Shown here: positions 25,362 through 52,116 of the stretch, piece after piece | Layout: each line of letters begins with the position of its first letter | Numbering within the stretch: position 1 is the stretch's first letter | Assembly (NCBI RefSeq): GCF_947495925.1 | Contig: NZ_CANMAU010000002.1 | Location: forward strand, 186,001 to 250,000 | Length of the DNA: 64,000 bases | Reading direction: 5' to 3' | From: an uncultured Algibacter sp. | GTDB taxonomy: Bacteria > Bacteroidota > Bacteroidia > Flavobacteriales > Flavobacteriaceae | Made by a program: the position numbers and the translations under genes | Notes under the pieces: generated by a model | Told to the model about the DNA's origin: nothing | Database searches by the model: none | The model's input: the letters and a program-made list of their open reading frames with translations, nothing else

Positions 25362-25453
25362 AAAATTTTGTTTTAGCCCTGATAGAAGCGGCATCCTTTT
25401 TTGAGGTACGAGAAAAAGATACAGCCGATAGCAGGAAAAAGCTTCAAATATTT

Positions 25454-41851: not shown

Positions 41852-44191
41852 TTATTCCTCTTTTTTGATTTGCGAGTTTTCTTGCCCTGTTGTTGGTTCT
41901 ATAACTTCAATTGTCGCAGGTTTTACCGAACTATCATGAGCTTCATGGTATTCTTCTAATAAGTTCATAGTAGCATTCAATAAATCTTTCGTTTCTAACA
42001 GAACTCCAAAATAAAGTGTAGTGTTTTTAGGACTGGATTCTTCAGTCCGTGTTCGTTCCACTTGTTTTTGAATTTTTTCTGTAACTAAGCTAAAAAGCTT
42101 ATCCTTGCTTCCCAAAATACTACCTATTTGTTCGAAAGACTGCGTATCGAAAGATTCTTTAGTCCCATTGAATAATTTCTCAAGAGCATCGTCAACTTCC
42201 TTTAATTCTTTTATTTGATTGAATTTAAGTTTCTTGTGGTTGTTGTTGACGTGTTTGTGACTTACTTTAGAAATATACTCTAAGGATTGTGTCATATCCT
42301 GTAAGTAGCCTAAAATATTAATATAAAAATTACTTGCGCCTACACTTGAGTCGTCTAAGTTTTTTATGAAATAGAAAATATTATCTCTTAAATCTTCAAC
42401 TTCTTGAGATAACTTTACAATTTGCTTATTATTCTTTTTGAGTAGAGCTAAATCTTGTTTAGCAAGACCGTTGATGGAGTTCGTATATATTTTGTTTCCT
42501 CGTTTAACCACATTAGCAATATTACCTGCACTTTCAACAATAACTCCTTGAATTGAGCTGCTTTCAGCTTTTTTGAGACTATCACTAGCTCTAACTTCCT
42601 TAGATTTTTTGTTATGAACTATAGTACTTCTTACTAATAAGGCGAAAGCTATAGCTAATAGGATGGGAAACATCACGTGGATGTTTAAATTAAGTAAATA
42701 GGCCACTAAAGCTGCTGCTGAGAAAGCACTTATAGCAGTAAAAAACCACCCTCCTATAACATTTATTACTCCAGCAACTCTATATACAGCACTTTCTGCT
42801 CCCCAAGCTCGATCTGCTAATGATGTTCCCATGGCAACCATAAAAGTCACATAAGTTGTTGAAAGTGGAAGTTTGTAAGATGTTGCAATTGAAATTAAAA
42901 CAGCGGCTACCATTAAATTTACCGCAGCTCTCACCATGTCAAATGCGGGTAGTTCAATTTTCTTGGTTGCAGTTATAGCTATCGCAGGAGTTTCAAATTG
43001 TCTATCAATTTTTTTCTGCCAAGAATCAGGTAACATAAAACTCGTCATTTGAGACATTAACATAGCAGATCTTACGAAACCTCTAGATAGAAAGTTAGGT
43101 TGAAATCTTTCTTTTGTTTCCCCTTGACTTGAAAGATCTAATGATGTTTTAACAACGTTTTTTGCTTTTGTAGAAAACCAAAGTGTTAAGACCATAATCA
43201 TACCTGCGGCCAATAATAACCAATTGTTAGTAGGGACCTTTTTTGCTAAGACTTCCATTGAAAATTCAGTTGCAGGTAGCCCAGAAGCAGTCCACTCTAA
43301 AAAGGCGTTATATGCAGCGACAGGAACTCCAATAAAGTTCACTAAATCATTACCTGAAAAAGCCAGAGCTAATGCGAAGGTTCCAACAATTATAATTAGT
43401 TTATAAATATTGGTCTTTGCAAAAGCTATTAAAATATAAGATAATAGTGACCAAAATAAAGAACACACTACAACAATAGAGAGTACCTGGCTTTCCAAAA
43501 AGTCCTTCATGGTGCCACCTCCAAGAATATCAAAAGATTCTTTGGCGTAAGATGTCCCCTTTAAGCCTTTCATAAAAATGAAATAGGTTATAGCAGTCAA
43601 AGCAAAACCACCAAATAGGGCTCCTACCCAATGTGCTTTCTTTTCAAAATTGTAAGATAAAAGTACTCTTGAAATCCATTGAACAATTGCTCCTATAGAG
43701 AATGCGACGACTACAGATAGCAATATGCCAAATATAATTTGAGAAGCTTTGGATGTATTTATATAATTAATAACATCACTAAAATCCCCACTATTATGTC
43801 CTATTTTTATTAAAGCCATAGCCACTGCGGCTCCTAATAATTCGAAAACTATTGATACTGTTGTAGATGTTGGCATACCTACTGAATTAAAGAAATCTAA
43901 TAGCAGAATATCTGTAATCATAACCGCCATGAAAATTATCATGATTTCATTAAACATGAATTCTCCAGGGTTGAAAATTCCTTTTCTAGCAACTTCCATC
44001 ATGCCACTAGAAAATACTGCGCCAACAGCAACTCCGATACTTGCAACAATCATTATGGTTTTAAATGATATTGCCTTTGATCCTATAGCTGAATTCAAAA
44101 AGTTAACAGCGTCATTACTAACACCAACAACCAAATCAGCAATAGCTAAAATGGCCAAGGCAATAATCATATACAAATAGATGTTATCCAT
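41852..44191 (-). CDS. PiT-family phosphate transporter with C-terminal helical domain
   Basis: The protein has 779 residues, far longer than simple PiT carriers (~500). Two inverted PHO4 repeats are seen: GVSNDAVNFLNSAIGS near the N-terminus and FSGNDLVNFIGVPVAAYN in the middle, each with the GxNDxxN phosphate-site signature. The last ~230 residues are cytoplasmic, coiled and PhoU/DUF47-like (QEVEDLRDNIFYFIKNLDDS). It imports phosphate by cation symport. The ATG at 44191 (MDNIYLYMII) is chosen; the upstream frame is not membrane-compatible. It lies 71 bp after the porin in the same operon. Confidence 0.9.
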   Translation of the reverse strand: MDNIYLYMIIALAILAIADLVVGVSNDAVNFLNSAIGSKAISFKTIMIVASIGVAVGAVFSSGMMEVARKGIFNPGEFMFNEIMIIFMAVMITDILLLDFFNSVGMPTSTTVSIVFELLGAAVAMALIKIGHNSGDFSDVINYINTSKASQIIFGILLSVVVAFSIGAIVQWISRVLLSYNFEKKAHWVGALFGGFALTAITYFIFMKGLKGTSYAKESFDILGGGTMKDFLESQVLSIVVVCSLFWSLLSYILIAFAKTNIYKLIIIVGTFALALAFSGNDLVNFIGVPVAAYNAFLEWTASGLPATEFSMEVLAKKVPTNNWLLLAAGMIMVLTLWFSTKAKNVVKTSLDLSSQGETKERFQPNFLSRGFVRSAMLMSQMTSFMLPDSWQKKIDRQFETPAIAITATKKIELPAFDMVRAAVNLMVAAVLISIATSYKLPLSTTYVTFMVAMGTSLADRAWGAESAVYRVAGVINVIGGWFFTAISAFSAAALVAYLLNLNIHVMFPILLAIAFALLVRSTIVHNKKSKEVRASDSLKKAESSSIQGVIVESAGNIANVVKRGNKIYTNSINGLAKQDLALLKKNNKQIVKLSQEVEDLRDNIFYFIKNLDDSSVGASNFYINILGYLQDMTQSLEYISKVSHKHVNNNHKKLKFNQIKELKEVDDALEKLFNGTKESFDTQSFEQIGSILGSKDKLFSLVTEKIQKQVERTRTEESSPKNTTLYFGVLLETKDLLNATMNLLEEYHEAHDSSVKPATIEVIEPTTGQENSQIKKEE

Positions 44192-44262
44192 AGTGTTTAA
44201 TTGAAATAAGTTTGCAAATATCCTAAGCATAATTCAGTATTGTGTTATGTAATTGTTATTTT

Positions 44263-45465
44263 TTAGAAATGTATGTCCATTTGTAGTCTAACCATAATAT
44301 TATCACTGTTAGGTGAAATATCTAAATAACTGACATCAGATTGTATTTTTAGTTTATGTCCAACAATAAACCTTGATACACCTAAGGTATACATGTCTGT
44401 GGTGTTATGGGCATTAGCTAAAATAGGGAACTCCATATAGGTGTTAGTATAACGTCCCGCAATTTCCCAATTAGAAGGGAATAAATGTCCCGCTTGAAGG
44501 TTAATTGAATGTCCAATGCGAACGTACTGACCAGTTTCTGTTCCGTCAGAATTTTTAACTATAGGGTCATCGGCTGTCCTATTTGCGTATTCAAACATGA
44601 AAGAATTACCTTTATATTTTAACATGCCATCTACAAAAACAGTATTAATGTCAGTTTGATAAAGCCCTTGTTCATCATCAATAAGCATGTAGGCACCAAG
44701 ATTGCTTCTAGCTCTTACCGCATTATTATTATGGTCATAAGTAGCTCCAATAGATAATTTTGGTTTTTGCTCTCGTTTTAGGTCAGATCCTTTGTAATCT
44801 CCCTTACTTGCAAAGTTTCCAAAAGGTAATAACTCTAATCTACCTGTGTATTGAAGGCCTCCTAAATTACCCACAGTTTGATTTCTTCCCTCACCCTGAC
44901 TTAGAGAGAAGATTTCTCTTACAATAAATGAATCTGTTAGGTTGAAGTGATGTCTTAATTGAAACCCTATATCTCTGTCAATGTTAAAGTTGGCATTTAA
45001 TAAGGATCTATTCACTAATTGAAGATCTCCAGAAGATACTACACGTTCTCTATTTCCTGGTAGTTTTCCTTGTCCTACCCATAGTTCAAAATTTCTGTAG
45101 AAATTCCATTTAATTTGGGCATCCATAATATATCTAGGGGTGTTCCTATTGTATACCGAGAGTCCTGAGATATCTCTGTTAGAAAGGCCAAGTTCAAATT
45201 TGTACCTTAGTTTAGGATTTAGAACAAAGCCGTCAAATTTTAACCTAGAACGTCTTACCAAAAAATTAGTATTAGTTTCGCCACTTTCGTTAAAATTAGC
45301 CACTCCTAAAAGTTGAAACCTAAATCCCACTTTCATAGTAAAAGAACTGTCTTTCCCTTTAATGTTTAGAAGGCCTTTGCCAAATTTACCCGATTTAATC
45401 TCTTGCCCTTGAGTAGTAATCATGGCAAGTAAAAACATCCCAAGAAGGGCAGTTTTAGTATTCAT
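44263..45465 (-). CDS. Phosphate-selective-type porin (Porin_O_P family)
   Basis: The protein has 400 residues. It has a signal peptide (LLGMFLLAMITTQGQ). The barrel start has KVGFRFQLLGVANFNES and the hallmark VRRSRLKFDGFVLNPKLRYK, a basic strand that fits the OprO/OprP group; last strand VRLQMDIHF ends in Phe. It should let phosphate or polyphosphate through the outer membrane. It is followed by the PiT transporter, so the operon covers both membranes. Its promoter has an 11-bp-repeat array (45512-45533). Confidence 0.88.
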   Translation of the reverse strand: MNTKTALLGMFLLAMITTQGQEIKSGKFGKGLLNIKGKDSSFTMKVGFRFQLLGVANFNESGETNTNFLVRRSRLKFDGFVLNPKLRYKFELGLSNRDISGLSVYNRNTPRYIMDAQIKWNFYRNFELWVGQGKLPGNRERVVSSGDLQLVNRSLLNANFNIDRDIGFQLRHHFNLTDSFIVREIFSLSQGEGRNQTVGNLGGLQYTGRLELLPFGNFASKGDYKGSDLKREQKPKLSIGATYDHNNNAVRARSNLGAYMLIDDEQGLYQTDINTVFVDGMLKYKGNSFMFEYANRTADDPIVKNSDGTETGQYVRIGHSINLQAGHLFPSNWEIAGRYTNTYMEFPILANAHNTTDMYTLGVSRFIVGHKLKIQSDVSYLDISPNSDNIMVRLQMDIHF

Positions 45466-45487
45466 TATGTTATTAGTTTTTGTCGCT

Positions 45488-45533
45488 GCAAAGAACTAAT
45501 AATAATTTTAAGCTAATGTTTCCTTAATGTTAA
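45488..45533 (-). promoter_or_regulatory. 11-bp repeat promoter of the porin-PiT operon
   Basis: Plus-strand view: -7 element GCAAAGAAC (45488-45496; coding GTTCTTTGC), 15 bases, then two contiguous 11-mers GCTAATG-TTT-C (45512) and CTTAATG-TTA-A (45523). On the coding strand this is TTAACATTAAG-GAAACATTAGC. The spacing from -7 to the first unit equals that of three other promoters in the region. The -7 is 23 bp from the porin start. Confidence 0.7.
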
Positions 45534-45548
45534 ATATGGAGAATCTAA

Positions 45549-45651
45549 AAGACTGCCTCGGCCAAAGGCAGTCTTGATTAGAAATCATGATAATGTAGTC
45601 GACAAAAACTAATAGATTATATGAAATACTAATTGTTTGTCTTAAGACATT
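45549..45651 (-). ncRNA. Possible small RNA upstream of the porin gene
   Basis: A minus-strand promoter-like site at 45652-45708 would start a transcript near 45645. A perfect 10-bp hairpin (AAGACTGCCT, loop TTGGCCG, AGGCAGTCTT; 45549-45575) followed by TT/AG on the minus strand could end it after about 100 bases, before the porin's own promoter. No open frame is present. It may instead be a long leader; expression is unproven. Confidence 0.35.
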
Positions 45652-45708
45652 ACAAATGTCGCGGTTTAGTTTAAGGTGAATGTAATCTTAATATTAACTA
45701 ATTATTAA
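45652..45708 (-). promoter_or_regulatory. Second minus-strand 11-bp repeat promoter-like site
   Basis: -7-like ACAAATGTC (45652-45660; coding GACATTTGT), then 15 bases, then units GTGAATG-TAA-T (45676), CTTAATA-TTA-A (45687) and CTAATTA-TTA-A (45698). The register to the -7 is the same 16 bp as in the four gene promoters, but the units are less exact. Confidence 0.4.
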
Positions 45709-45765
45709 TATTTCAATGTTAAATCTTTAATTTTAAGAAATTAAAAATCAGATGATTATGATTCC

Positions 45766-45822
45766 AATGTTAATTTAATGTTATCTAAATGTTGTTTGAA
45801 AGTTAACTAATATGTATATTTG
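45766..45822 (+). promoter_or_regulatory. Reversed four-unit 11-bp array and -7 of the MORN-like gene
   Basis: Four adjacent 11-mers: AATGTTAATTT, AATGTTATCTA, AATGTTGTTTG and AAAGTTAACTA (45766-45809). The canonical TATATTTG (45815-45822) follows after 5 bases. The TAACATT core is on the minus strand, that is reversed relative to the gene it precedes, unlike the other promoters in the region. Confidence 0.6.
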
Positions 45823-45849
45823 TTTTATAATGTTAAAACACCCATAATT

Positions 45850-46167
45850 ATGAAGAAATCAGTTTTATTAATTTTTGCTTTTTTAATTGCTGTGGTTTCT
45901 TTTGCTCAACAAAAGAGAGAATTAAAACATAACCCAGACACTAATTTAATAGATGTTGTTTATTATCATGACAATGGTGTTGTAAGTCAAACAGGTTCTT
46001 ACACAGCAGATGGTAAATTACAAGGCGTTTGGTTAAGTTTTGACACAGAAGGCAATAAAATCGTTTCTGCAAATTATGATAATGGAAAAAAAGTCGGCAA
46101 ATGGATTCACTGGATTGATGGTGAAAAGAAGGTCGTAGATTATGCTAATAATGTGGCATCGCTGTAA
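45850..46167 (+). CDS. MORN/YwqK-like secreted protein
   Basis: The protein has 105 residues. It has a signal peptide (SVLLIFAFLIAVVSFAQQ) and three MORN-like repeats: DVVYYHDNGVVSQTGSYTAD, GKLQGVWLSFDTEGN and GKKVGKWIHWIDGEK. Such repeats occur in YwqK-type proteins and may contact membranes or partners; function unknown. The ATG at 45850 gives the signal; upstream TTG/ATG codons fall at the transcription start. It shares the intergenic region with the porin operon. Confidence 0.78.
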   Translation: MKKSVLLIFAFLIAVVSFAQQKRELKHNPDTNLIDVVYYHDNGVVSQTGSYTADGKLQGVWLSFDTEGNKIVSANYDNGKKVGKWIHWIDGEKKVVDYANNVASL

Positions 46168-46179
46168 AGCCTATGTCAT

Positions 46180-46232
46180 TTGAAATACAATAAAAAAGCA
46201 TCCCATTGGGATGCTTTTTTATTGTATTTCAA
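46180..46232. terminator. Bidirectional terminator
   Basis: TTGAAATACAATAAAAAAGC continues into ATCCC and pairs with its exact complement around a 3-base loop (25-bp stem), with T runs both ways. It separates the convergent MORN-like and beta-helix genes. Confidence 0.92.
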
Positions 46233-46241
46233 TATATCATT

Positions 46242-48281
46242 CTAAAGGCTCGCGTCTTTCCAAGCCCATCCTGAGATGTCTAAAGGGGCAGCATCTTTAC
46301 CAGAGTTAAGCTCGTATTTAGTAGTCTCTCCAGAAAGTAAAGTTGCATCAGCAGTAGCTCCATTTATTTGCACGTTTGCTAAATCACCACCATCTTTCAT
46401 ATCTAAATCTACACCATATCCATCTAAATGAAGTCCAGTTATAGTTCCACCAGATTGCTTTTTAAACTGTAAAGCAATACCTTCTACTGTAGATATCGCA
46501 GTGATGTTGTTGAATTTAGGGTTTCCATTGTCCTTATCACCTTCAAAAACAGTAGAGAATCCGGGTACGGTATGAGAAATATAAGCATTGCTTACTGTAC
46601 CGTTCCATCCTTCAGTCCAATCAATTGAATCATCAGAGTTATTTTCTAAGTATAAGTTAGATGCAGAAACCGTTCCGCCAAAGAACTCAACCCCGTCATC
46701 ATCACCATTAATTACAGAAACATAATCTATTTCTGTTTCAGAACCTACAGCATATAATGATAATCCATTGTATTGAGACTCAGAATTAATTTGAGCTCCA
46801 GTACCTTTTAAAACTAAATATTTAATTGATCCTGAATTGTCAGTATCATTGGTACCACCGTAAATAAAACCACCAACTTCAGCAGTAGCATCAACACCAG
46901 CAGTAGTTGTAGCGTCTCCGCAAATGGTTAAACCACCCCAGTCTCCAGGACTAGCAGAAGCCGAAGCAATTACAACAGGGTTAGTTGAAGTACCTTGAAT
47001 ATCAATTTCACCACCTTTTAATACCGCGATGTAAACACCAGTACCACCATCTCTGGCAGTAATTTTAGTTCCAGCAGGAATTATTAACTTACCACCATCT
47101 TGAACAATATAAGATGAATTCAATAAATAGTCAACAGAAGCATCTAAAGTTACAGTTCCAGTAACGGCACCTTGAAGCATGCTAGTTTCAAAAGATAAAT
47201 CAGAACTTACCCAATCAAAATCAGCTATATCAACCGTAGGAACTACAGGAGCATTAAGGGCATAAAAATATTTGCCTTCAGTTTCAGGGTCTGTTGGATC
47301 AGTGATAGCAACAGGCACTAACCCGTCATTAAAGATAATATTAGCAGTATCTCCACCATCTTTCATGTCTAAATCAACATCGTATCCACTTAGAGATAAG
47401 TTAGTGATTGTCCCACCAGATTGTTTTTTGAACTGTAAAGCTGTTCCACCTACTGTAGAAACAGAAGTGATATTTACGAATTTAGGGTTACCATTATCTT
47501 TATCTCCCTCAAAAGCTGTGGAGAAACCAGCAACAGTATGAGAGATATAAGCGTTTGTTACTGTTCCATTCCAGCCTTCTGTCCAATCAATAGCATCATC
47601 ACTACTGTTTTCTAAGTACAAGTTAGATACAGAAACTGTTCCACCAAAAAACTCTACACCGTCATCATCACCATTAATAACTGCAATGTTATCTACAAAT
47701 GTATCAGATCCAACTGCATAAAAAGACACCCCATTGTATTGAGATTCTGAGTTAATCTGAGCTCCTGTTCCATTAATTTGTAAGTATCTAATGCTACCAG
47801 AGTTATCAGTATCATCAGTACCACCATAAATAAAACCACCAACTTCAGCAGTAGCATCTACACCGGCAGTAGTTGTAGCATTTCCACAAATAGTTAAGCC
47901 ACCCCAATCACCAGGCTCTCCATTTAAAGAAGACATGATTACTGGATTAGATGCAGTACCATTAATATTAATTTTTCCACCTTTTAAAACAGCAAGATAA
48001 ACATCAGTACCTCCTTCATCAGCAAGAATTTTTGTTCCGGCAGGAATATTTAAAGTAGCACCTTCGGCAATTATAAATTGTCCTGTTAGGTTATAGTTTA
48101 CTGAGGCATCAAGGGTATAATCTTCTTCTAAAGTCCCTTTCATAGTGCCAGCTTCTAAGTCAATAATTACTTGATCTTCTCCAGGAACAATTGGAGCTGG
48201 ATCATCAGAACTACAACTTGTTAGATTCATTGCTGCTATCACAGCAACTAAACCAAATAATTTTACAGTTAGTTTTTTCAT
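46242..48281 (-). CDS. Beta-helix surface lipoprotein with a tandem duplication
   Basis: The protein has 679 residues. The signal peptide has Cys23 after NLTS (NLTSCSSDD), a surface-lipoprotein type start. Two repeats of about 250 residues (roughly 56-305 and 378-627, offset 322) are near-identical in their centre, e.g. GDWGGLTIC, AEVGGFIYGGT, NGDDDGVEFFGG, IDWTEGWNGTV. The Gly/Asp-rich ladder and hydrophobic repeats indicate a right-handed beta helix; the Asp clusters may bind calcium. No peptidase or lyase residues were recognised. It lies between the porin and a TonB receptor and has a promoter like theirs, so it may bind a substrate for the receptor. Confidence 0.75.
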   Translation of the reverse strand: MKKLTVKLFGLVAVIAAMNLTSCSSDDPAPIVPGEDQVIIDLEAGTMKGTLEEDYTLDASVNYNLTGQFIIAEGATLNIPAGTKILADEGGTDVYLAVLKGGKININGTASNPVIMSSLNGEPGDWGGLTICGNATTTAGVDATAEVGGFIYGGTDDTDNSGSIRYLQINGTGAQINSESQYNGVSFYAVGSDTFVDNIAVINGDDDGVEFFGGTVSVSNLYLENSSDDAIDWTEGWNGTVTNAYISHTVAGFSTAFEGDKDNGNPKFVNITSVSTVGGTALQFKKQSGGTITNLSLSGYDVDLDMKDGGDTANIIFNDGLVPVAITDPTDPETEGKYFYALNAPVVPTVDIADFDWVSSDLSFETSMLQGAVTGTVTLDASVDYLLNSSYIVQDGGKLIIPAGTKITARDGGTGVYIAVLKGGEIDIQGTSTNPVVIASASASPGDWGGLTICGDATTTAGVDATAEVGGFIYGGTNDTDNSGSIKYLVLKGTGAQINSESQYNGLSLYAVGSETEIDYVSVINGDDDGVEFFGGTVSASNLYLENNSDDSIDWTEGWNGTVSNAYISHTVPGFSTVFEGDKDNGNPKFNNITAISTVEGIALQFKKQSGGTITGLHLDGYGVDLDMKDGGDLANVQINGATADATLLSGETTKYELNSGKDAAPLDISGWAWKDASL
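46401..47150 (-). repeat. Internal gene duplication, copy 2
   Basis: DNA and protein repeat of copy 1 (47367-48116) with an offset of 966 bp (322 codons, no net frameshift). The central ~100 bp blocks are almost the same at DNA level, the edges more diverged, as if homogenised by recombination. Confidence 0.8.
47367..48116 (-). repeat. Internal gene duplication, copy 1
   Basis: N-terminal copy of the ~250-residue beta-helix unit of the lipoprotein gene; partner of 46401-47150. Limits are approximate, set by the TLDASV strand at the start and the DLDMKDGGD strand near the end. Confidence 0.8.
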
Positions 48282-48317
48282 TTTTAATTTTATTGTTTTT
48301 GAACATTTAATTCTCCT

Positions 48318-48374
48318 GCAAAGAACAAGATTTTCCTTTGCTTCATCTTTAAGAGAATATTAAACGTAGGTTAC
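48318..48374 (-). promoter_or_regulatory. 11-bp repeat promoter of the beta-helix gene
   Basis: -7 element GCAAAGAAC (48318-48326), 15 bases, then TTCATCT-TTA-A (48342), GAGAATA-TTA-A (48353) and ACGTAGG-TTA-C (48364). It is 37 bp from the start codon. A separate pair in phase, GTTATTG-TTA-C and TAAAAGG-TTA-A, lies at 48395-48416. The perfect palindrome TAAACGTA-GGT-TACGTTTA (48361-48379) overlaps units 2-3. Confidence 0.65.
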
Positions 48375-48464
48375 GTTTATTTGGAAATATAAGGGTTATT
48401 GTTACTAAAAGGTTAACAAGCGAATTAAAGCTTTTAAGGATAAGGTTTACGTTTTAAATCGTCA

Positions 48465-48500
48465 TAAAAAAAGCCCAAGAATAGAGTTTTCTTGGGCTTA
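48465..48500 (-). terminator. Terminator of the TonB receptor gene
   Basis: AAGCCCAAGA and TCTTGGGCTT pair; on the minus strand a T run follows. It is 31 bp after the receptor stop and insulates the beta-helix promoter. Confidence 0.9.
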
Positions 48501-48530
48501 GATTATTATTTGGAATTATATGAATACTTC

Positions 48531-51314
48531 TTAGAATGCGTATTTCAAACTTAAACTTAGCACGCTTCCACTTTTATATGAACTCACAAGCTCATCTGTT
48601 TCTGTACCATCAACAAGACTTTGTACTTTTTGAGTTTGTTGTATATCAGGATTTAACAGGTTTCTGCCTATAAATTTTAAAAGCAATCTGTCTGTTAATT
48701 GTTTGCTCAATACTAAATCTAAAGTAACAAATCCTTTTTCTATGATTTCATCGTTATAAAGTACATCACTGCTCGCAAAATCTTCAGGGGCACCTAATGC
48801 AAATATTTTATCAGAAGCATAGTTGCCTGTAATTGTAGCTATGAATGGTCTTTCCGATTGGTTGTTGTAGCTTAAAGATCCGTTAATTATTAAATCTGAA
48901 GCACCTTGTAATTCAGATTCAGTCAGGTTTTTATATTGGAATTCTTCTAATAAATCTTGGTTAAACCACATTTTAGTTAGGTTCACATTAAAATCAAGAA
49001 TAGATTCTTCTTCTTCATTTTCGATTAAATTTAAGCGTGTTTCGATTTCAACTCCAAAAACATCGGCTTGTTCTCCAGTATTTCTGTATTGAAAAATACC
49101 AGCAGACCCTCTTGCTAAAGCTAAGTTGATTGGATTTTTAATTTGCTTATAAAATGTTGTTGCAGACAATAATTCTCCTGCTTTAGGGAAGAATTCCCAT
49201 TTTAAATCAACATTAAAAACATCGGACTTTTCAAGGTTGGGATCACCTTTTGTTACACGGCCAGTAGGTGATACGTATTCAAACGGAGATAATTCTTTAA
49301 ACTCTGGAAGTACTTGCGTTAAACTTGAAGCAAAACGTAAAAAGTGTTTGTCTGTTAATGCATATTTAAGATTTGCGCTAGGATAAAACTCGTTATATTC
49401 TTTTTTAACAGAACCCACACGACCAACAAAGTTAGCTACATCCCAAAGTACATTTATTTCATCTCTTTCATATCTAACACCTAAATTACCAGAAAATCGC
49501 TTATTAAGGCCAAAGTCTACGTTGGCATATCCACCCATTGCTGTGAAATCTGCATCATACCTGTCTGGATCAGGTTCCCTTAAAACCAAGCCGTTTTCAA
49601 AGTTTTCTTCTGTGAACGTATCTGAAAAATCATCTATACTCGGTGCACGAAAATCTCTCGCTCTCACCCCGATAAATTGAGAGCTAAATACCCTTTCCTT
49701 TTTACGATAATTTGCACCAACATTAAGGCGATAATTTCTATTATCATCTTCGTCTAATTGCCCAAAATCTATTTGATCTTTTATCAAACCATTGAATTCT
49801 CTATCTTCAATTTTCTGGCTTGATTTTCTTTGTTGAAAGTCACCAACGTGCGCATATTGGGCTTCCTCGTTGTCCTCAAAATAAATATTAGCTTCGTTTC
49901 TTACTCTGTTAGGCTCTTCTGCTAAAACATAGTTGTAACCACCAGACCATTCAAGTCTGTTATTCTCATTAATTTGGTGCGTTCCATTAATTTGATTAAC
50001 AAGTAAAATAGTTTGTTTAAAGTTCTGGTCTCTTACAAAAGCCTCCGTTTCTTTTGGATCTTGATCAAAGACATACCCTCTTCCATCTCTACCTTGCTCA
50101 TAAACATTATCCTCACTTCTATTAACAGATAAACTACTAATTTTAATTCTATTATCATTGTTAATTTTATAACCTAAGTTGATGTATCCAGTAGAACGCG
50201 TATTAGTAATATATTCTTCAACGCTAGGGGTATTAACTATTTTTTCGGCATCGAAAAAACGTGGGAATCCGTTATCTAGGACGTTAGATCTAAAGGTTCT
50301 AAAAATACCTTCTCTATATTCAAACGATTTTGAATGTGATCCTGCAACATAAAATGACAGGTCTTTTCCAAATAACTGAAATTTATAGCCACCACCTAAA
50401 GCTAAGCTGTAGTTAGCTGTGTTGCTTTGCGTTAATGGATCCCAAGGTTGTCTTGTTATTAAATCGACCGTAGCATATTGTTTTTTATGGAAACCGAAAG
50501 TCACATCCTCAGAGGCAATACTTCTTTTAAAATCACCATCCATTCCTAAAACATTGGTGTTATAACCCGAACGAAGACGTGCTGAAAATTCTTTTTTAGA
50601 ATATATTTTAGAGGAGATATCAACGTTTCCTGAAGTTTGATCAGCATATCCGTCTGTATTATAGGTTTTGCTAATACCAACGTTTTCTATCATTTGTGTT
50701 GAAAATAAATCAAGATTAATATTTTTATTATCAACGTCATCTGAAGGAATAGGAAGCCCATTCATAGTTGTAGATAAATATCTATCTCCTAGACCTCTAA
50801 TATAGATCTCTCCAGAACCTTCACTCTGCGTAACCCCTGAAATTTTGGTAGTTGCTGCTGCTGCATCTGAAACACCAATTTTGGATAGTCTTGCTGCTCC
50901 AATACTTTCTTTTATTACAACCGCCTTTTTTTGTTCTAATAATAAAGCGGTTTCACTTTCTCTTTTTGTAGTGGTTGTGATAACTACCTCATCCAAAGAA
51001 GCTGCACTGGCTCCCATTGGTACATTAACTTCGGTTACTTTTCCTGCTACAATGGTTACAACAATTTCTTGAGTTTCATAGCCAACAAAGCTATATACCA
51101 AGGTATAGTCTCCGACTTCCAAATCATTGAAGGCGTATAAACCATCAAAGTCTGAAGTGGTTCCAGTAGTCGTTCCTTTTATTAATACATTAGCGAAGGC
51201 TAACGGTTCATTGTTATATTCCTTATCTGTAAGTTTTCCAACTACAGAGCCCGTATTTTGGGCGTAAGTAAATACTGTTGTTAAAAGTATAAACAGAAAT
51301 GTGATTTTTTTCAT
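48531..51314 (-). CDS. Large TonB-dependent receptor (carboxypeptidase-like N-domain)
   Basis: The protein has 927 residues. Order: signal peptide (FLFILLTTVFTYAQ), carboxypeptidase-like domain (NTGSVVGKLTDKEYNNEPLA), TonB-box-like region SLDEVVITTTTKRE, plug with EIYIRGLGDRYLSTTMNGLP, then a barrel ending VLSLSLKYAF. No SusD gene is adjacent; the beta-helix lipoprotein downstream may take that place. Substrate unknown, but the promoter matches the phosphate-porin promoter, so a phosphorus source is a reasonable guess. The start at 51314 gives the signal. Confidence 0.9.
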   Translation of the reverse strand: MKKITFLFILLTTVFTYAQNTGSVVGKLTDKEYNNEPLAFANVLIKGTTTGTTSDFDGLYAFNDLEVGDYTLVYSFVGYETQEIVVTIVAGKVTEVNVPMGASAASLDEVVITTTTKRESETALLLEQKKAVVIKESIGAARLSKIGVSDAAAATTKISGVTQSEGSGEIYIRGLGDRYLSTTMNGLPIPSDDVDNKNINLDLFSTQMIENVGISKTYNTDGYADQTSGNVDISSKIYSKKEFSARLRSGYNTNVLGMDGDFKRSIASEDVTFGFHKKQYATVDLITRQPWDPLTQSNTANYSLALGGGYKFQLFGKDLSFYVAGSHSKSFEYREGIFRTFRSNVLDNGFPRFFDAEKIVNTPSVEEYITNTRSTGYINLGYKINNDNRIKISSLSVNRSEDNVYEQGRDGRGYVFDQDPKETEAFVRDQNFKQTILLVNQINGTHQINENNRLEWSGGYNYVLAEEPNRVRNEANIYFEDNEEAQYAHVGDFQQRKSSQKIEDREFNGLIKDQIDFGQLDEDDNRNYRLNVGANYRKKERVFSSQFIGVRARDFRAPSIDDFSDTFTEENFENGLVLREPDPDRYDADFTAMGGYANVDFGLNKRFSGNLGVRYERDEINVLWDVANFVGRVGSVKKEYNEFYPSANLKYALTDKHFLRFASSLTQVLPEFKELSPFEYVSPTGRVTKGDPNLEKSDVFNVDLKWEFFPKAGELLSATTFYKQIKNPINLALARGSAGIFQYRNTGEQADVFGVEIETRLNLIENEEEESILDFNVNLTKMWFNQDLLEEFQYKNLTESELQGASDLIINGSLSYNNQSERPFIATITGNYASDKIFALGAPEDFASSDVLYNDEIIEKGFVTLDLVLSKQLTDRLLLKFIGRNLLNPDIQQTQKVQSLVDGTETDELVSSYKSGSVLSLSLKYAF

Positions 51315-51337
51315 TTTTTTATCTATGATTTCTAGCC

Positions 51338-51416
51338 GCAAAGAAACCAAGATATTGTGAACACATCGTTACCTATGGGTTAAAGAACAGTAACAAAAGC
51401 GTTAGCTAAACGTTAT
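51338..51416 (-). promoter_or_regulatory. Five-unit 11-bp repeat promoter of the TonB receptor
   Basis: -7 element GCAAAGAAA (51338-51346), 15 bases, then CACATCG-TTA-C, CTATGGG-TTA-A, AGAACAG-TAA-C, AAAAGCG-TTA-G and CTAAACG-TTA-T from 51362 to 51416 without gaps. The -7 is 24 bp from the ATG. Further out, GGTTACG-TTA-A with TTTAACA-TTA-A (51443-51464) and the palindrome TTTAACG-TAA-CGTTAAA (51534-51550) look related; otherwise the gap to 51576 is empty. Confidence 0.75.
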
Positions 51417-51575
51417 GTAATTAGAAAAATAATGCTTTATTTGGTTACGTTAATTTAACATTAAAATCATAACACTTTGATTTGCATATAGTGATGTATT
51501 TGAATTTTGTTTTATTTTAAAACAGGAAGTAATTTTAACGTAACGTTAAACTAGTAGTAATGACTGTAAACAAAT

Positions 51576-51604
51576 AAGCGATTTTTATTAAATAAAAATC
51601 GCTT
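51576..51604 (-). terminator. Terminator of the free NTD gene
   Basis: AAGCGATTTTTAT and ATAAAAATCGCTT pair with a 3-base loop; 56 bp after the stop of the small gene on the minus strand. T run weak. Confidence 0.7.
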
Positions 51605-51659
51605 TAAATTATATTTTGAAATCCTTTTTTAGAAGGTTCTCGATTGGTTGAAGTTTTTT

Positions 51660-52016
51660 CTAATCAGTACTTGCAATAGTCGTCATTAAATCATCTAATG
51701 ATATCGTACTCGCTGCAAGATTAAAAGTAATAGTTGTTGAAGTATTTGAAGTGACTTCAATTTTTATTTCTTGAGTTTCATAACCAGTAAAACTTCCCAC
51801 TAAAGTATAAGTGCCCTCTTCTAAATTTCCGAATTTAAATAATCCGTTCTCATCCGACAAAACCTTAGACCCGGTTTCTTTAATTAGAATCCTACCATAT
51901 AATAACGGCGCGTTGTTAGACTCTATATCTAACAATTGACCATTAATGGTACCTGATTCTTGTGCAAAGGTAGTTGCTGTTATTAAAAAGAGTATCGTAT
52001 ATATAAAACCTTTCAT
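51660..52016 (-). CDS. Free-standing carboxypeptidase-like domain (receptor NTD paralogue)
   Basis: The protein has 118 residues. Signal peptide (YTILFLITATTFAQE) plus one domain aligned along its full length with the N-terminus of the TonB receptor downstream: SGTINGQLLDIESNNAPL versus TGSVVGKLTDKEYNNEPL, and GTYTLVGSFTGYETQEI versus DYTLVYSFVGYETQEI. It stops at SLDDLMTT, where the receptor continues into its TonB box and plug. It has its own promoter with the longest array, so it is a maintained gene rather than debris. It could modulate TonB or the receptor. Confidence 0.8.
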   Translation of the reverse strand: MKGFIYTILFLITATTFAQESGTINGQLLDIESNNAPLLYGRILIKETGSKVLSDENGLFKFGNLEEGTYTLVGSFTGYETQEIKIEVTSNTSTTITFNLAASTISLDDLMTTIASTD

Positions 52017-52037
52017 TTGCTATTTCTTTAATGAAAT

Positions 52038-52116
52038 GCAAATTAAACGTATAAACATGACTAGAATGTTACTTAAAGTTTAAACATACATAATTAAAAT
52101 GTTACCTTAATGTTAA
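52038..52116 (-). promoter_or_regulatory. Five-unit 11-bp repeat promoter of the free NTD gene
   Basis: -7-like GCAAATTAA (52038-52046; coding TTAATTTGC), 15 bases, then TAGAATG-TTA-C (52062), TTAAAGT-TTA-A, ACATACA-TAA-T, TAAAATG-TTA-C and CTTAATG-TTA-A ending at 52116. Spacing and phase equal those of the other three promoters; 22 bp from the ATG. Confidence 0.75.

Follow-up and report, generated by a model that had tools for sequence, protein, structure and literature searches.

Tandem 11-bp repeats at a flavobacterial receptor, porin and PiT locus: a probable landing site for PhoB, and a predicted small RNA complementary to the porin mRNA leader

The Pho box of Bacillus reads TTAACA and that of cyanobacteria YTTAAYYW. 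The corresponding units are CTGTCAT in E. coli and GTTCACC in Streptomyces (PMC4415409; here and below, statements on published systems refer to the available parts of the cited papers). Among the Bacteroidota, whose low-phosphate responses are of ecological interest (PMC8115612), PhoB of B. fragilis binds promoter DNA of pstC by EMSA (PMC3547664, in the available part of which no motif was found). In F. johnsoniae the cluster Fjoh_0541-0549, which holds PhoBR, a receptor and the beta-helix lipoprotein FII, shows strong induction at low Pi (PMC8115612, whose main text does not contain the word 'promoter'). The open-licence literature searched yielded no description of a Bacteroidota Pho box sequence, nor of the small RNA reported below.

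The locus described here lies in a window of 64,000 nt from an uncultured Algibacter sp. (contig NZ_CANMAU010000002.1, positions 186,001-250,000). Like the PhoB/PhoP Pho boxes, its promoters carry tandem 11-nt direct repeats, several to a promoter, close to where the upstream promoter element lies. Unlike them, the unit is of the TAACATT type, up to six units occur, the array is tied to the TTTG -7 element of the Bacteroidota sigma-A, and the setting is a receptor, beta-helix, porin and PiT locus, the 30 pst and 30 PhoX loci examined being without the box; in this last respect the locus also differs from the pstC case of B. fragilis. The Algibacter receptor set resembles the F. johnsoniae cluster, but it lies with the porin and PiT genes and a small RNA, away from phoBR.

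On the minus strand the locus comprises a protein consisting of a free CarboxypepD_reg-like N-terminal domain (NTD; 51660..52016) and a TonB-dependent receptor (TBDT) with a CarboxypepD_reg N-terminal domain (48531..51314), both assigned by domain search. These are followed by a beta-helix lipoprotein (46242..48281; 41% identity over 330 aligned positions to a F. aquidurense protein) akin to the lipoprotein that follows the phoBR-linked receptor in Flavobacterium, a Porin O/P family outer-membrane protein (44263..45465; PF07396) and a PiT-type phosphate transporter (PHO4) with a long C-terminal part (41852..44194, ATG at 44194; PF01384). A small MORN-repeat-like protein, whose match lies under the Pfam cut-off, is encoded divergently (45850..46167, plus strand), and between its gene and the porin sits the predicted small RNA of about 102 nt (45547..45648, minus strand), recognized by a hairpin, a seed, a terminator and a box of its own.

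The original prediction held that four promoters have 11-bp units at a constant register from TTTGC, and direct reading of all four bore this out. All on the minus strand, they are the porin promoter (45488..45544; score 43.5), with 11-bp units and the -7 element GTTCTTTGC; the TonB receptor promoter (51338..51415; 38.6), with five full units, the TCAC start of a sixth, and TTTCTTTGC; the free NTD promoter (52038..52115; 19.5), with units and TTAATTTGC; and the beta-helix promoter (48318..48373; 11.1), with weak units and again GTTCTTTGC. Three boxes, also on the minus strand, come in addition to those first noted: that of the PiT gene, within the 3' end of the porin gene (44214..44270; 15.6), its TTTGC about 20 nt ahead of the PiT ATG; that of the predicted small RNA, in the register of the other boxes (45653..45708; 20.5); and a further array, TAACTTTCAAA CAACATTTAGA TAACATTAAAT TAACATTGGAA, between the small RNA and the MORN gene (45751..45806; 8.0).

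The matrix used to scan the window was built from 54 orthologue promoters outside the Algibacter genome, and 30 block-shuffled windows gave the chance level (maximum 12.6, mean 7.3). Over both strands of the 64-kb window the six top sites were those of the porin, the TonB receptor, the small RNA, the NTD, the PiT gene and the beta-helix lipoprotein. The expectation that a matrix would set the boxes apart from chance held for the porin, TonB receptor and NTD, three of the four promoters first noted, each of which beat the shuffled-window maximum. It failed for the beta-helix box, which is correctly placed despite its low score but falls inside the shuffled-window range and alone is not beyond chance. 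Sites scoring above 17 stand directly downstream of the receptor gene in four relatives (L033, L035, L036 and L039). The array by the MORN gene likewise scores inside the shuffled-window range, and its TAACATTn4TAACATT core is kept in 17 of 30 loci. The array is oriented like the small RNA, some 100 bp ahead of it, and adjoins TATATTTG, a -7-like element of the divergent MORN gene; it may act at a distance or repress that gene.

Family-wide conservation was surveyed in 249 genomes, with TBDT matches in 233 and porin matches in 159, and the promoters of the best 30 of each, the Algibacter genome included, were read. Scored with a matrix trained on these same promoters, a box above 17 was present in 26 of 30 TBDT and 30 of 30 porin promoters, in keeping with the claim that orthologous promoters would retain the register. 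Boxes above 14 occurred at 67 of 76 named TBDT loci, and a PiT-type box above 15 in the corresponding region of 16 of 30 porin loci. As a control on circularity we used cross-training. With the TBDT-trained matrix 25 of 30 porin promoters outscored every one of 219,282 coding positions, and with the porin-trained matrix 69 of 76 named TBDT promoters and 15 of 30 family TBDT promoters did; that the latter matrix recovers just half of the family set counts against the explanation we favour.

For the register itself, promoters were anchored on TTTGC only and offsets counted to the end of TTTG, so that in the phase used here units open with T[AT]A at 22, 33, 44, (55), 66 and 77 nt before that point. 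Units of the form T[AT]A[ACT] stood at 22, 33, 44, 66 and 77 nt in 94-98% of the 67 named TBDT promoters that could be anchored (9 of 76 could not), the mean over all offsets being 13% and the unit at 55 degenerate (23%). The same five positions were occupied in 68, 96, 100, 100 and 96% of 29 family TBDT promoters. Porin promoters (24 of 30 anchored) have units at 22 (87%) and 44 (95%), and at offset 33 a sequence such as GAAAC replaces the unit. A strict pattern run over 149 genomes gave 234 matches against 53 for reversed-pattern controls, with a match in 112 genomes; by eye, many among the matches listed were at TBDT or porin genes. In three Sphingobacterium loci (L305, L306 and L351) the register is visible and weak (8.2-8.6). 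The repeats are real and deeply conserved in flavobacteria, and the proposed arrangement of tandem head-to-tail 11-bp repeats over the -33 region, at fixed spacing to the -7 element, stands.

The whole Algibacter genome was also searched. A sequence model of the box, R1, was built after 7 of 60 promoter windows with scores below 25 had been omitted. The porin (E 2.8e-10) and the TBDT (1e-7) stood out with it, the MORN-side array came next (0.0015), and all other matches, including the NTD at 0.08, were inseparable from noise. A stringent one-mismatch pattern gave 15 matches against 24 for reversed-pattern controls, and was convincing at this locus only. A bare triple TAAC pattern showed no enrichment, with 42 matches against 47 for its reversed control; this, together with a beta-helix box that alone lies within the shuffled scores, is what a chance periodicity of AT-rich gaps might produce. 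Such an origin nevertheless seems hardly credible given the cross-gene matrices, the register and the conservation, and we rejected it on the cross-training, the register and the performance of a matrix free of Algibacter promoters.

Which protein the repeats serve is a separate question, and the phosphate regulator PhoB probably lands on them. The Algibacter genome encodes three proteins whose Trans_reg_C match passes the cut-off, one PhoB-like, one RprY-like and one with a membrane segment by eye. The first (L005:749-1429, minus strand) has PhoB TIGR02154 as its best NCBIfam match, at 219.8 bits under the equivalog cut-off of 296.2, and scores 208 against NF053854, below the cut-off of 270; we call it PhoB because of this best match and its synteny with Flavobacterium phoB. 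Its gene is followed by that of a histidine kinase, in a gene order shared with F. aquidurense and F. hibernum that includes glycosyltransferase-like and tyrosyl-tRNA synthetase-like genes (names by sequence reading). In Flavobacterium the box-bearing TonB receptor and the beta-helix lipoprotein adjoin phoB; in Algibacter both are at the porin-PiT locus. Across the 76 named loci, PhoB is divergent within 3 kb of the receptor in 51, with a box above 14 in 50 of these 51, and the PhoB proteins so placed are 64-82% identical to that of Algibacter. In a second set of 20 loci PhoB was near the receptor in six, of which F. limi also belongs to the 76.

Expression data from F. johnsoniae bear on the same point. 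In the low-Pi table (FC column, read as log2) the receptor Fjoh_0545 stands at 8.02, the lipoprotein Fjoh_0546 at 9.91, PhoB (Fjoh_0544) at 3.06 and Fjoh_0541 at 5.42, and the OprP Fjoh_0542 is not induced (-1.3, not significant) (PMC8115612). OprP is the family of the lead gene here, and the F. aquidurense counterpart of Fjoh_0542 has a box-like site (11.4) in front of it. Domain content, gene order and similarity, read in closely related species of Flavobacterium, suggest that these F. johnsoniae genes correspond to those of the window. The suggested link of the repeats to PhoB and phosphate gains support from both sides, with phoB beside the box-bearing receptor and the F. johnsoniae counterparts induced (PMC8115612).

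The repeats could instead be bound by another OmpR-family regulator, such as the RprY-like protein that the Algibacter genome encodes, or by a non-OmpR activator, the phosphate link then resting on gene content only. The PhoX and pst loci without a box would suit such a binder. We consider it unlikely in view of the divergent phoB genes and their boxes described above, and tandem 11-nt units are moreover the described arrangement for PhoB (PMC4415409). Three F. johnsoniae TonB-dependent receptors are induced under Pi-depletion only, and Fjoh_0545 is among the low-Pi receptors tabulated (PMC8115612). PhoB is retained below as the candidate regulator.

No site above 4 reads towards the Algibacter phoB gene. 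A weak TAAC-unit array (4.8; L398:11408-11463) lies between phoB and a small T9SS-type gene and reads away from phoB. Flavobacterium has the TonB receptor where this array stands, and the array may have been left behind when the receptor set moved elsewhere.

The wider proposal, of a phosphate regulon across the phylum, was not supported. No box above 12 was present within flanks of up to 1.5 kb at 30 PhoX loci (59 genomes with matches) or at 30 pst loci (205 genomes with matches), a search that a farther operon promoter would escape. The 17-kb MauG-PhoX region of F. limi had no site above 4. The F. johnsoniae OprP, as noted, is not induced, and PhoX is the highest-induced phosphomonoesterase in the table for that species (PMC8115612). 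The Algibacter genome has no PhoX or PstC match, and PhoX was matched in only 1 of 10 Flavobacterium genomes picked for it. The box is well supported for one Flavobacteriaceae locus, as a locus-level Pho box and not as the mark of a phylum-wide regulon. Matches in four Flavobacterium genomes were close overall to the control (137 versus 108); recurring extra matches before glycosidase-like, acyltransferase-like and TonB-type receptor genes were not adopted. The glycosidase-like and acyltransferase-like genes are not known Pho genes, which counts against our explanation. In F. hibernum and F. oncorhynchi (L394 and L395), three TTAAC units at 11-bp spacing precede a TonB-type receptor gene, with a poor -7 element.

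The predicted small RNA upstream of the porin consists of a 5' GTC-UUAA-GAC hairpin at its inferred +1, a conserved linker carrying the seed TATTAGTTTTTGTCGAC, and an intrinsic terminator whose hairpin is followed by T. Of 30 porin loci, 26 retain this seed-bearing stretch of about 100 nt, the mean column identity being 80% in 25 aligned, and RNAalifold gave 15 pairs, 7 of them with double-sided changes (five in the terminator, two in the 5' hairpin). A third RNAalifold helix, short, invariant and without double-sided changes, overlaps the seed and would compete with the leader pairing described below. The small-RNA box was not in the training set; of 70 related regions, 40 have a best site there that beats 11.05, the highest coding score, and 56 have one above 5. 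Model R2 of the RNA matched 115 of 249 genomes and 99 of 202 genera at E <= 0.01, although the weakest matches may be chance. Among the 76 named loci it was present in 11: eight Polaribacter, two MAGs (Bacteroidia, Flavobacteriaceae) and, weakly, Flavobacterium microcysteis. In silico, then, the RNA has its own promoter and terminator and is conserved across genera.

Rfam at gathering score left the small RNA unmatched, the matches in the window being one tRNA and a Flavo-1 RNA (25371-25442, plus strand). Like the Flavobacterium sRNA Rfp18, it is a conserved flavobacterial small RNA, but Rfp18 is strongly structured and has protease targets (PMC9723704), whereas most of the Algibacter RNA lacks structure, its promoter carries a box and its link is to the porin leader. 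Rfp18 as its identity was set aside on this published description, not on sequence (PMC9723704).

The -7 box of F. psychrophilum spans -12 to -5 (PMC9723704). By analogy, this spacing would put the start of the small RNA on or beside the palindrome and that of the porin mRNA at GACAAAAAC. The porin -7 element, GTTCTTTG, is without the TA of TAnnTTTG, while the small-RNA promoter keeps the A (GATATTTG in many relatives, GACATTTG here), and for this reason the small RNA may depend less on the activator than the porin does.

The linker of the small RNA is complementary to the leader CGACAAAAACTAATAACATA (45466..45485, minus strand), with which the porin mRNA would begin. We examined 89 loci, made up of the 30 best porin matches, 39 of 40 loci with an R2 match (L406, which has no porin match, was omitted) and 20 without one. 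By regular expression 69 had both seed and leader, 17 neither, two the leader only and one the seed only (Fisher p 4e-15, uncorrected for relatedness). The seed-only case is spurious, and the 'seed' of L067 is a chance match. Cognate duplexes averaged -20.5 kcal/mol, against -17.3 kcal/mol with swapped leaders, and 0 of 20,000 permutations were as low. In the 69 pairs (60 distinct), 986 of 1104 cells were paired, against a mean of 936.4 and a maximum of 963 in 5000 shuffles, and double-sided changes occurred at several positions, for example in L412 and L414, L420, L410, L441, L453 and L455. Such counts are inflated by relatedness, yet without pairing it would be difficult to account for the separate double changes. 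Among 159 Algibacter start regions (duplicates from overlapping loci counted; mean -10.4 kcal/mol), the porin leader was the best partner of the small RNA (-22.3 kcal/mol), the next distinct one reaching -20.5 kcal/mol.

This covariation supports pairing of the small RNA with the porin leader, and is also compatible with an intramolecular stem, as would form around the terminator between seed and leader if the RNA were the leader or attenuator of a longer porin transcript. The two lie on the same strand, with about 60 nt from the terminator to the inferred porin +1. We think this improbable, since the RNA ends in a terminator that shows compensatory changes, a promoter stronger than that of the RNA (45.3 versus 22.0) serves the porin from a point beyond this terminator, and the complementary stretch begins at the inferred porin +1. 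A separate small RNA acting on the porin message is the reading carried forward here.

As to what the pairing would do, a block on initiation or faster decay is likeliest, since these bacteria initiate without a Shine-Dalgarno sequence and the pairing extends from the inferred +1 in the direction of the AUG. Protection or activation of the message is a doubtful though not far-fetched alternative: the pairing spans the inferred extreme 5' end, and both RNAs would be co-induced, but in some relatives (e.g. L428 and L438) the predicted pairing nears the start codon.

Taking repression as the preferred outcome, we consider it likely that arrays for a PhoB-type activator drive the locus together with a small RNA that brakes the porin-PiT message. 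PhoB~P would bind the 11-bp units head to tail, the last unit beginning 22 nt before the end of the weak sigma-A -7 element GTTCTTTG, so that the array would substitute for a -33 element. Scarce phosphate would then switch on the NTD, TonB receptor, beta-helix, porin and PiT genes and the small RNA. Made directly upstream of the porin gene, the small RNA would pair with the first 15-25 nt or so of the porin mRNA and act as an incoherent feed-forward brake on the porin-PiT uptake route.

For the Flavobacteriaceae at large we lean, by a small measure, towards a widespread PhoB-driven small RNA that pairs from the first nucleotide of the phosphate-porin mRNA, the array family and the RNA brake together setting the stoichiometry of receptor, porin and PiT in a route that can replace Pst. 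The box offers a way to tell which uncharacterised outer-membrane proteins take part in phosphate uptake. The small RNA provides an example, from a lineage that does not use Shine-Dalgarno initiation, in which covariation over many genera documents the pairing with the target.

In one group of genomes (L428, L430, L431, L434, L436 and L438) a second stretch of the porin leader (ACGATTT or a variant) is complementary to the small RNA; it reaches near the start codon, and a bulge separates the two helices.
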